Part shown: positions 6,998-9,906 of the stretch, one piece after another
How the letters are laid out: the number at the start of each line of letters is the position of its first letter
How positions within the stretch are numbered: the first letter of the stretch is position 1
Origin: Phycisphaerae bacterium
Lineage (GTDB): Bacteria > Planctomycetota > Phycisphaerae > JAJVII01
Direction of reading: 5' to 3'
DNA length: 64,000 bases
NCBI GenBank assembly: GCA_022072085.1
Contig: JAJVII010000049.1
Location: 1-64,000, forward strand
Notes under the pieces: model-generated
Databases searched by the model: none
The model's input: the letters and a program-made list of their open reading frames with translations, nothing else
What the model was told of the DNA's origin: nothing
Program-made: the position numbers and the translations under genes

Positions 6998-7011
6998 TTC
7001 CCGAGGTGGCC

Positions 7012-8064
7012 GTGAAGAACCTGCTGATCGTCGCGCCCAACTGGGTCGGGGACGCCGTGCTGGCGACGCCGACGCTGCGCGCGATCCGCGAGGGGGTCGG
7101 CCCGGACGTGCGGATCGCCCTGCTGATCCGCGAATACCTCGGCCAGGTGCTGGAGGGGGCCCCCTGGTTTGACGAGGCCATCGTCTGGCCGACCGGCCCG
7201 GGCGGACGGCCGATCGGGGCGTGGCGGATGGCCCGGCTCCTGCGGGGCAGGGGGTTCGACGCCGCGGTGCTGATGCCCAACAGCTTCCGGTCGGCATGGA
7301 CGGTGCGCCTGGCGGGGATCGGCCGCCGGGTCGGTTACGCCCGCGACGGGCGGTCCGTTCTATTGACAGACCGGCTCAAACCGGTAAAAAAGGGCGGGGC
7401 CTACGCGGCTGAGTCGATGGTGGTTTACTATGCCCGGTTGGCCGAGGCGATCGGTTGCCCCGTGCGCGACCGTCGCCTTGAGTTGTTCACCAGCCAGGCC
7501 GACCGCGACGCGGTTGACGGGCTGCTCGGCCGGGTCGAAGGCGACCGCGGCGGACCGCTGTTCGTGCTCAATCCCGGCGGGGCGTTCGGGCCCAGCAAGT
7601 ATTGGCCCGCGGAGCGCTACGGCCGACTGGGCGACCGGCTGCTGGAGCGGTTCGGCGGCCGCCTGGTCATCAGCGGCGCGCCGCGCGAGCGGGAGACGAT
7701 CGAGGCGGTGGCCGCCGCGATGAAACGGCCGGGCTTTCCGCTCTCCGAGCACCCGATCCCGCTGTCGGCGGTGAAGGAACTGGTGGCCCGGGCGGACCTG
7801 CTGGTGACCAACGACACGGGCCCGCGGCATTTCGGACTGGCGATGGGGACGCCGACGGTGACGCTGTTCGGATCGACCGACCCGGCCTGGACCGAGACGC
7901 ACTGCCCGCACGAGCGGTCGGTGCGGATCGAGATGGATTGCAGCCCCTGTCAGAAGCCGGTCTGCCCGCTGGGCCATCACGACTGCATGGAGCGGATGAC
8001 GGTCGAGCAGGTCGAGTCGGCGGCGGTGGAACTGATGCGGTCGGCCGGCAAGTCCGGCCATTGA
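7012..8064 (+). CDS. waaF: Lipopolysaccharide heptosyltransferase II (GT9 family)
   Basis: The product transfers ADP-heptose to the LPS inner core. It begins MKNLLIVAPNWVGDAVLATP, the GT9 signature start. Later come FVLNPGGAFGPSKYWP, the nucleotide-binding LVTNDTGPRHFG and TVTLFGSTDP loops, and a C-terminal DCSPCQKPVCPLGHHDCM cluster characteristic of WaaF. Length (350 residues) is normal. I chose the GTG at 7012 because GAGG lies six bases upstream; a GTG at 7006 would add two residues but overlaps that site. It is the first gene of a three-gene LPS core unit and implies an outer membrane with heptose-containing LPS. Confidence 0.9.
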   Translation: MKNLLIVAPNWVGDAVLATPTLRAIREGVGPDVRIALLIREYLGQVLEGAPWFDEAIVWPTGPGGRPIGAWRMARLLRGRGFDAAVLMPNSFRSAWTVRLAGIGRRVGYARDGRSVLLTDRLKPVKKGGAYAAESMVVYYARLAEAIGCPVRDRRLELFTSQADRDAVDGLLGRVEGDRGGPLFVLNPGGAFGPSKYWPAERYGRLGDRLLERFGGRLVISGAPRERETIEAVAAAMKRPGFPLSEHPIPLSAVKELVARADLLVTNDTGPRHFGLAMGTPTVTLFGSTDPAWTETHCPHERSVRIEMDCSPCQKPVCPLGHHDCMERMTVEQVESAAVELMRSAGKSGH

Positions 8065-8078
8065 CTCCTGGGCGATTC

Positions 8079-8957
8079 ATGGGAACGCGGCTGAAGATCG
8101 ACAAGGCCTACCGTCAGCGCCTGGCTGAGGCGGGTCTGGACACCGTGCCCAAGGTGCTGGCCACGCCGGTGGCCGACCTGGAGGGCAGCGGCCAGCGCTA
8201 CGCCCAGTACGAGGTGAACGGACAGGCTTCGCAGCCGACGCTCTACGTCAAGCGGTTCCATTACGCGGACTGGCCGACGCGGTTCAACTTTCTAGGCCGC
8301 TGCTTCTTCGGCCGATCGCGGGCTCAGCGCGAGTGGCGGCGGCTTCGGCTGATGCACAAGCTGGGCATCCAGTCGTCGCGTCCGCTGGCGCGGGGGGAGA
8401 AGCGGATTTTCGGCTTCCTGGTCGATTGCTACCTGGTCACCGAGGGCGTGCCGGCCAGCGACTCGCTGCGTGACTTCGCGGTGCGCTACTTCCACAAGGC
8501 CGCCTCGCCGCGCGGCCGCGAGCTGAAGCAGGCGATCCTCAGCCAGTTGGCCGACCAGATTCAGCTGATGCACTCCAAGCATTTCTATCACGGCGAGCTG
8601 ACCTGGGACAACATCCTGATCCGCCCGACGCCGGCGGGCGAGTTTGAGTTCTTCTTCATCAACGCCCTGCGCGGTCGGCGGGTCTTCGTCCCGTGGAAGC
8701 GCGCCCGGCTGCGGGCCCGCGACCTGGCCGGCATCGACGCGGTGCCCGACGAGTTCATGAGCACCTGCGACAAGATTCGCTTCCTCAAGCGCTACCTCGA
8801 CCAGGACGAAGTGAGCGACCGCCAGCGCGAGTGGATGAGGCTCATCCAGCGCATCGCCGGCGACATGTTCGCGTCGCGATCGACCTACACCACGGCTCGA
8901 CCGGCCGAGCCGCCTTCCACCGCCAACCGGCAGGAAACCCTCGGTGTACACCATTGA
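8079..8957 (+). CDS. Kdo/WaaP-type LPS kinase family protein with altered catalytic residues
   Basis: The 292-residue protein follows waaF after 14 bases. It has the kinase-like LPS core phosphorylation fold: a glycine-poor N-lobe with LYVKRFHY, a LMHSKHFYHGELTWDNIL catalytic loop and a later FFINALRGRR segment. In active members these motifs read HRD...N and IDxxRG. Here the catalytic Asp is Glu (HGE) and the metal-binding Asp is Asn (FINALRG), so phosphotransfer is doubtful. Its end overlaps the start of the next, intact kinase gene by 14 bases, implying translational coupling. It may be a pseudokinase partner, or an enzyme with shifted chemistry. Confidence 0.7.
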   Translation: MGTRLKIDKAYRQRLAEAGLDTVPKVLATPVADLEGSGQRYAQYEVNGQASQPTLYVKRFHYADWPTRFNFLGRCFFGRSRAQREWRRLRLMHKLGIQSSRPLARGEKRIFGFLVDCYLVTEGVPASDSLRDFAVRYFHKAASPRGRELKQAILSQLADQIQLMHSKHFYHGELTWDNILIRPTPAGEFEFFFINALRGRRVFVPWKRARLRARDLAGIDAVPDEFMSTCDKIRFLKRYLDQDEVSDRQREWMRLIQRIAGDMFASRSTYTTARPAEPPSTANRQETLGVHH

Positions 8958-9906
8958 CCCGGGTTACGCGGATCAACTGGCCTGCTGGGGGCTGGACTAC
9001 CTGGTCGGCGCGCTGGCTTTTCCCGCCCAGGTCGGCCGACCCGGGCAGATGCCCGTCTGGAAACGGCTGGGCAGCAGCAGCACGGAGCAGTGCTATCGCA
9101 TCGAGCCCTCGCCCGACGAGGTCGCCCGCCACTACCGCCCGCTGTACTTGAAGGTCTCGCACCACGTCCCGCCGACGTGGCGATACGTCGGCCGGGCCAG
9201 CCGGGCGTCGCGCGAGGCGGCCAACCTGCGTGCTCTGGCTGGACTGGGCGTCCACTGCCCGCGGATCATCGCCCTGGGCGAGCGGCGCGAAGCCGGCCCG
9301 GCGATCATCACCGCCCCCACCGCGCCGCTGGCGATCGTCCTGCGGATGCTCGGACGCGACCTGCTGGTCGGCACGGCGCTGATCCTGACGGCCATCGAGC
9401 CCAGCCTGGACCTTGCGGCGTTCGCTGAGGCGCACTGGCGGGCCCCCGCCCAGGCCGACGACGCCCAGCGCCGCCAGATCGCCCGGCTGACCCAGGAACT
9501 CAGCGCCCAGCTCGTGCTGCTGCACGCCCGGCGGTTCGTGCACCGCGACCTCAAGTTCCGCAATCTGCTGGTCTGCTGGCCTCAGGGGCAGCGGCCCGGC
9601 GTGGACAACCTGCGGATCGCCTGGATCGACTGCCCGCGCGGCGGGCGGATGTTGCCCGGCCCGTGGCTGGAATACTGGCGCGTCTACGACCTCTACGAAC
9701 TCGACCGCTACGCCCGCCGCTACCTGTCGCGGACGCAGCGGCTGCGTTTCCTGCGCGACTACCTGCTGGCCCTGGGCGGAACGCGGGCGCTGCGGCGGAT
9801 GCACCGGCTGGCCCGGCGGGTGCTGGCCTACGACGAGCATCTCCGCCGAAAGAACGCCCGCCGCCGTCGCCGCTCCGGCGGCCCGGAAGAGCTCGCCGGA
9901 CCGTGA
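8944..9906 (+). CDS. Kdo/WaaP-type lipopolysaccharide core kinase
   Basis: This 320-residue protein has the intact motifs of the LPS kinase family: LYLKVSHH in the N-lobe, FVHRDLKFRNLL as catalytic loop, and IAWIDCPRGGRM supplying the metal-binding Asp. The tail is strongly basic (ending with many Arg near EHLRRKNARRRRR), fitting an inner-face membrane enzyme. It starts with GTG inside the preceding gene (14-base overlap, AGGA upstream). The likely job is ATP-dependent phosphorylation of LPS core sugar, working with WaaF. The exact acceptor (Kdo or heptose) cannot be told from sequence. Confidence 0.75.
   Translation: MYTIDPGYADQLACWGLDYLVGALAFPAQVGRPGQMPVWKRLGSSSTEQCYRIEPSPDEVARHYRPLYLKVSHHVPPTWRYVGRASRASREAANLRALAGLGVHCPRIIALGERREAGPAIITAPTAPLAIVLRMLGRDLLVGTALILTAIEPSLDLAAFAEAHWRAPAQADDAQRRQIARLTQELSAQLVLLHARRFVHRDLKFRNLLVCWPQGQRPGVDNLRIAWIDCPRGGRMLPGPWLEYWRVYDLYELDRYARRYLSRTQRLRFLRDYLLALGGTRALRRMHRLARRVLAYDEHLRRKNARRRRRSGGPEELAGP

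Follow-up and report, generated by a model that had tools for sequence, protein, structure and literature searches.

An overlapping pair of Kdo/WaaP-family genes in a Phycisphaerae bacterium encodes a probable pseudokinase and an intact kinase

Organization of the Locus

The window, by which we mean the whole stretch of 64,000 nucleotides analysed, carries three consecutive plus-strand genes, which encode a waaF-type heptosyltransferase and two proteins of the Kdo/WaaP family, here termed A and B. Their features are as follows.

7006-8064, plus strand: heptosyltransferase II of the waaF type, with which the cluster begins (PF01075 match; TIGR02195 score 176.9 bits, cut-off 134.6)
8079-8957, plus strand: gene A, probable Kdo/WaaP-family pseudokinase of 292 amino acids, ATG start (PF06293, AlphaFold, Foldseek)
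8589-8612, plus strand: catalytic loop of A, HGELTWDN (sequence, alignment)
8595-8597, plus strand: Glu173 of A (GAG), replacing the catalytic Asp (sequence)
8607-8609, plus strand: Asp177 of A, where relatives carry Arg (sequence, alignment)
8661-8663, plus strand: Asn195 of A (AAC), replacing the metal-binding (DFG) Asp (the 50 other A rows all have Asp)
8932-8935, plus strand: AGGA, putative ribosome-binding site of B lying within A, 8 nt 5′ of the GTG (read from the sequence, its function presumed)
8944-8957, plus strand: overlap of A and B, 14 bp, including the stop codon of A (sequence)
8944-9906, plus strand: gene B, Kdo/WaaP-family kinase of 320 amino acids, GTG start (PF06293, AlphaFold, Foldseek)
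9547-9549, plus strand: catalytic Asp202 of B (GAC) (sequence, alignment)
9628-9630, plus strand: metal-binding Asp229 of B (sequence, alignment)

The stop codon of the waaF-type gene lies 14 nt 5′ of the ATG of A. The 14-base overlap of A and B, described in an earlier note on this DNA, is confirmed and depends on the GTG start of B; the sole alternative found in the vicinity of the domain, an ATG, lies 91 nt past the stop codon of A. In alignment, the N-terminus of B (IDPGY..L.CWGLD) is similar to that of the A group (IDPxYRxxLxxxGLD). The third codon positions of A are 89% GC, as in the neighbouring genes. The possibility that A and B are spurious open reading frames was rejected because both score well above the Pfam cut-off of 21.3 bits for PF06293 (61.9 bits for A and 46.6 bits for B), although long antisense frames are common at this GC content.

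The draft genome (72 contigs) holds five PF06293 matches besides A, a count that includes B, and encodes LpxC (PF03331) and the N-terminal domain of a Kdo transferase (PF04413), so that an LPS pathway is likely to be present. Both kinds of evidence used here to assign a locus to LPS-core biosynthesis, a neighbouring heptosyltransferase (TIGR02195) and LPS genes in the genome (PF04413, PF03331), were found. Both genomes of the family to which the window belongs also carry a further tandem double Kdo kinase in a single open frame (612 and 553 amino acids; G000:C41:19372-20634 and G001:C585), with the catalytic Asp in both domains.

Active Sites and Predicted Folds

The catalytic loop of A reads H171-G-E173-L-T-W-D177-N178 and its metal-binding segment F-I-N195-A-L-R-G; the corresponding motifs of B are H200-R-D202-L-K-F-R-N207 and I-D229-C-P-R-G. 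Sequence and alignment thus bear out the HGE and FINALRG of A and the HRD and IDCPRG of B that the earlier note had singled out. Two features had escaped it: Asp177 of A occupies a column that holds Arg in at least 90% of A rows, and the ATP-site residues Lys58 and Glu85 of A are retained. The loop residues His171 and Asn178 are also kept, and the group-invariant residues retained by A are K58, R59, R68, R74, R81, E85 and H171. In B, Lys70, Glu91, Asp202, Asn207 and Asp229 are invariant across a 16-row alignment of its relatives; B has all five residues used here to define an active WaaP-type kinase, and A has no Asp at the sites of WaaP D163 and D188.

By sequence, a pseudokinase is defined by the absence of the VAIK Lys, the HRD Asp or the DFG Asp, or of more than one of them (PMC4718504, available sections), and both the HRD Asp and the DFG Asp are gone from A. 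The available sections of the study of Pseudomonas aeruginosa WaaP (PMC6147952) report no growth for the variants D163A (catalytic) and D188N (DFG), the proteins still being made, and an EDTA MIC shifted only 2-fold for R162A. D188N is identical to the substitution represented by Asn195 of A, and the dispensability of Arg162 agrees with the occurrence of HGD, HFD and HQD in relatives. By analogy with these mutants, we infer that A would be incapable of phosphotransfer.

At the level of NCBIfam equivalogs, A lies below the cut-offs for WaaP/RfaP, KdkA and InaA (38.9 against 170, 28 against 142 and 18 against 235 bits, respectively), and B lies below that for KdkA (12.9 against 142 bits). The AlphaFold model of A, built on a 51-row alignment, is a confident kinase fold (mean pLDDT 86.8, pTM 0.85) in which stretches with pLDDT below 50 are limited to residues 35-37 and the C-terminal tail (274-292); the model of B, built on 16 rows, has pLDDT 83.2 and pTM 0.80. 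WaaP (6dfl) is the top Foldseek match of both proteins, for A with a probability of 1.00 and a TM score of 0.73 by target length. B also contains, at window 9295-9363, about 23 inserted residues, hydrophobic for the most part (around ITAPTAPLAIVLRMLG), which are absent from the aligned relatives and modelled with low confidence, and which might contact the membrane or A.

Catalytic Residues in Orthologues of A

The A group, delimited by searches with A as the query and by a first tree, comprises 51 rows: 16 from family f3, 22 from f19, 10 from f14, 2 from f12 and the window itself. The overlapping search sets covered 61 genomes, 17 genomes of family f3 and 397 genomes, with at most 6 candidates per genome scored in the last. 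G036 (L070) and L127 (f18), both placed outside the group by the first tree, were excluded; the f19 tally of 22 rows omits L107, a fragment of the neighbouring kinase at an assembly gap; and the row counts omit ten A-like matches in nine genomes with E values of 3.7e-18 to 3.9e-16 (G207, G163 twice, G279, G269, G200, G234, G222, G282 and G240).

Asp occupies the catalytic position in 16 of the 51 rows, all of them from f3, and is lacking in the other 35. The f19 rows have Gln (13), Asn (8) or Arg (1), all 10 rows of f14 have Gly, the f12 rows have Ser and Ala, and Glu occurs in the window only. A full search of f19 detected A in 26 of 27 genomes, in every case without the Asp (Gln 15, Asn 9, Arg 2). 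The ATP-site Lys and Glu are present in 51 of 51 rows, and the DFG Asp in all rows except that of the window; Lys, Glu, Asn and the DFG Asp are together retained in 22/22 rows of f19 and 10/10 of f14. The catalytic Asp is found in all 68 readable paralogous domains of the same loci (60 in three named groups and 8 others). Many active family members with Glu and Asn at the two sites would have spoken against the earlier note; no such pattern was seen among the A rows, of which the 50 others include none with Asn at the DFG position and none with Glu at the catalytic one. No other member of the group is as degraded as window A.

Window A shares 36-41% identity with its f3 orthologues over nearly its full length and without an internal stop, and no closer relative was found, the best match in the class searches being at 41%. 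That A is an odd, unlinked kinase was rejected, because the orthologues share both near full-length similarity and gene order. The one genome of the sister genus (G001, 87% complete) yielded orthologues of neither A, nor B, nor the waaF-type gene; the cluster may have been lost there or may be unassembled.

Among more distant relatives, Asp is present in L204 (HGD) and L205 (HHD), and also in L156 (HGD), which lies near f3. In distant A-like kinases of other planctomycetes the catalytic Asp is apparently missing from 10 of 31 readable rows (L215, L217, L218, L219, L221, L223, L224, L230, L249 and L251; for example NGEYHWRN and LHTVFFKN), and Glu stands at this position in 3 of the 31; the rows were added by mafft --add, the loop readings are provisional, and 40 of the 94 matching genomes were fetched in part. 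WaaP-like kinases of other planctomycetes have Asp in 20 of 20 cases. The first domain of the f3 double kinases has Trp in place of the His of HRD, reading WPD or WLD with Asp kept, in 12 of 12 loci (L063, L064, L135, L136, L138-L142, L145, L148 and L149).

Gene Order and Overlap in Relatives

Among the 22 f19 loci, 21 have a heptosyltransferase gene that ends within 400 nt 5′ of the A domain, L103 being the exception; the same holds for 15 of the 16 f3 loci, all but L142. In f19, an intact WaaP-like kinase is encoded 3′ of A wherever the contig extends far enough, and a start giving a 4-bp overlap of the form xTGA is available at the A-kinase junction in 19 of 20 evaluable loci; the one evaluable exception is L116 (16-nt gap), the 20 being the loci other than L107 (assembly gap) and L113 (contig edge). 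Only 3 of 21 loci (L101, L111 and L118) allow a 4-base overlap between the heptosyltransferase gene and A. The junctions belong to related loci, and the counts are hence not independent trials. In f3, in which A is intact, 11 of 16 loci have another kinase 3′ of A; of these 11, 3 permit a 4-base overlap, and several loci have a double kinase further 3′. The coupling to an intact kinase postulated in the earlier note is therefore supported, more strongly in the relatives than in the window.

The Asp-less A of f14 lies outside the cluster, apart from both the heptosyltransferase and the partner kinase. All 4 of the f14 proteins scanned have a C-terminal SCP2-like lipid-binding segment, 2 of them above the Pfam cut-off, and two (L130 and L132) have a methyltransferase domain as well. 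These HGG-type fusions are located at L129:4200-5465, L123:4265-5557, L130:847-2844 and L132:1491-3668, and in L129 a methyltransferase gene lies 3′ of the fusion.

Number of Losses and Selection

In a tree built with the catalytic columns masked, window A groups with f3 and L156 in a clade of 18 rows (support 97/97), the other 17 of which all have Asp, and three changes between Asp and not-Asp are required. A constraint uniting all 41 Asp-less rows was not rejected (p-AU 0.248). Neither a single loss nor multiple losses can be taken as proven when this value is set against the three-change tree, and repeated loss, itself unproven, seems the better reading of the sequences. The terminal branch of window A is long, at 1.62 changes per column.

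The dN/dS ratios, calculated by the Nei-Gojobori method and rough for the several pairs with dS above 1, are 0.06-0.19 across eight pairs of Asp-less A genes (0.13 and 0.09 in the two least diverged), 0.025-0.17 across four pairs of intact f3 A genes and 0.12-0.25 across four pairs of the f19 partner kinase. The Asp-less A genes of the relatives are thus under purifying selection, with a constraint similar to that on intact kinases; the ratios cover relatives of window A, which itself has no close relative for pairing. Together with the derived loss of Asp in the orthologous group (35 of 51 rows) and the essential nature of both sites in the available account of WaaP, this selection gives good support to the earlier description of A as a probable pseudokinase.

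Possible Role of A

We propose, with a probability of about one half, that A is a catalytically dead subunit with an LPS-kinase fold, retained as a partner to the kinase whose gene adjoins it on the 3′ side. The direct basis of this proposal is the sequence states, orthology, gene order, overlap, selection in relatives and predicted fold. A would be derived from an active kinase, of which orthologues in one sister family still have HRD; the loss of its catalytic Asp would have been joined in the window lineage by losses of the metal-binding Asp and the loop Arg, with the fold kept. Overlapping translation would supply A and B in matched amounts. A would bind B and would most likely position the lipid A-core acceptor or keep B in its active shape, and B would phosphorylate the inner core built by the heptosyltransferase encoded just upstream. 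The heteromer of A and B, the regulation of B by A and the LPS core as substrate, which the earlier note had suggested, are what we infer here as well, the direction of regulation included.

The retention of the degenerate gene in overlap with an intact relative, and the recurrence of the same loss in dozens of related bacteria, make a helper role of the dead copy probable. The f19 A proteins, which retain the nucleotide-binding set of JAK2 JH2, probably still bind nucleotide by analogy with that domain. In window A, where neither the Arg nor the DFG Asp remains, nucleotide binding is probably weak or absent, which suggests that the role of the protein is structural and not catalytic.

Against a role as partner stand the sister genome, which has neither A nor B, and the f14 family, whose Asp-less, SCP2-fused A is encoded away from the heptosyltransferase and the partner kinase, so that the role of A need not require an adjoining kinase; a short overlap can also be plain operon compaction. 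The f14 proteins would also be accommodated if A were a non-catalytic lipid- or LPS-binding scaffold, acting alone or with the heptosyltransferase and adjoining the kinase through ordinary operon packing: no f14 locus has a partner kinase 3′ of A, the SCP2-like segments and methyltransferase domains occur there, and WaaP forms a tight acyl-ACP complex, which indicates a fold able to hold an acyl chain (PMC6147952, available sections). We consider this rather unlikely, as the 4-bp overlap in f19 is specific to the A-kinase junction. The retention in f19 and f14 of Lys, Glu, Asn and the DFG Asp, as for ATP binding, favours an active enzyme with altered chemistry, which would carry out slow Asp-independent phosphotransfer or transfer another group, as some kinase-fold proteins do; HER3, with Asn at the catalytic site, has residual activity (PMC3281104, available sections), and JAK2 JH2, also with Asn, has low activity (PMC4718504, available sections). 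However, Asp is freely replaced by different residues (Q, N, R, G, S, A, E), unlike what a conserved new chemistry would show, window A also lacks the metal-binding Asp and the loop Arg, and D188N kills WaaP in the available account, so that an altered chemistry appears unlikely.

Two further explanations concern the window lineage itself. Its long terminal branch, its three degenerate active-site positions and the presence of B and other Kdo-family kinases in the genome would be expected if redundancy had relaxed selection on A and its frame were open only because the decay is recent. This is improbable, because 292 codons are free of stops and frameshifts, the third positions are coding-like, the group-invariant residues and a confident predicted fold are retained, and the Asp-less A genes of other lineages are clearly under selection. 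It is hardly credible that an assembly or sequencing error altered both Asp codons, even in a draft genome of 72 contigs, since two clean, separate, in-frame substitutions fall exactly at the catalytic sites, a third falls at the loop Arg, and Asp is lost at the same site in independent genomes.

If A is indeed a partner of the adjoining kinase, a more far-reaching and clearly tentative interpretation is that Phycisphaerae possess an obligate two-subunit LPS-core kinase, in which a pseudokinase and a kinase are made from overlapping genes and the inactive subunit would bind the lipid-sugar acceptor or act as an allosteric switch of the active one. Such an enzyme would be a prokaryotic, lipid-directed counterpart of pseudokinase-kinase pairs. 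Within this interpretation, several losses of Asp in one gene would mean that the non-catalytic role is older than the loss. This gene survives as an intact kinase in one family and as a dead copy in others, next to an active partner, and one can thereby ask which non-catalytic roles a kinase has before catalysis is lost. If the proposal holds, simply counting Kdo/WaaP genes would give too many LPS-core phosphorylations for these bacteria.

Comparison with Known Systems

No report of a Kdo/WaaP pseudokinase was found in the literature searched, which covers few subscription papers, and a search for planctomycete LPS kinases gave no useful result. Bacterial Ser/Thr pseudokinases, of which seven families have been described (O'Boyle et al., 2025; PMC12599244, available sections), and SelO resemble A in having a bacterial kinase fold with degraded motifs. 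SelO, however, belongs to a different family from Kdo/WaaP, and the main text of that review, as available, does not contain Kdo, WaaP, lipopolysaccharide or Planctomyc.

The closest known protein is the heptose(I) kinase WaaP/RfaP of P. aeruginosa (6dfl), which is the best sequence and fold match of A and the best fold match of B, and which shares PF06293 and the same pathway neighbours. Unlike A, with its Glu and Asn, WaaP keeps the HRD and DFG Asp residues, both of which are essential (PMC6147952, available sections). The waaP-wapP-wapQ genes of Pseudomonas likewise place several LPS-kinase genes within one core cluster, but none is described as a pseudokinase in the available sections of the same paper; apart from the residues of WaaP, this comparison is by description.

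The arrangement of A and B is also reminiscent of the JH2 and JH1 domains of JAKs. JAKs are eukaryotic tyrosine kinases in which both domains belong to one chain, whereas two bacterial genes with a presumed sugar-lipid substrate are involved here; the pairing is known from gene order and overlap, and window A does not have the Arg. According to the available sections of PMC4718504, JAK2 JH2 has Asn for the catalytic Asp, binds ATP through Lys, Asn and the Lys/Arg preceding Asn, and controls its active neighbour. As in JAKs, a pseudokinase adjoins an active kinase, Asn replaces the catalytic Asp in 9 of 26 f19 A proteins, and the Lys/Arg just before the loop Asn is retained in A of f19. If the proposed role of A is correct, control by pseudokinases, mostly known from eukaryotic signalling, would extend to the sugar chemistry of the outer membrane.
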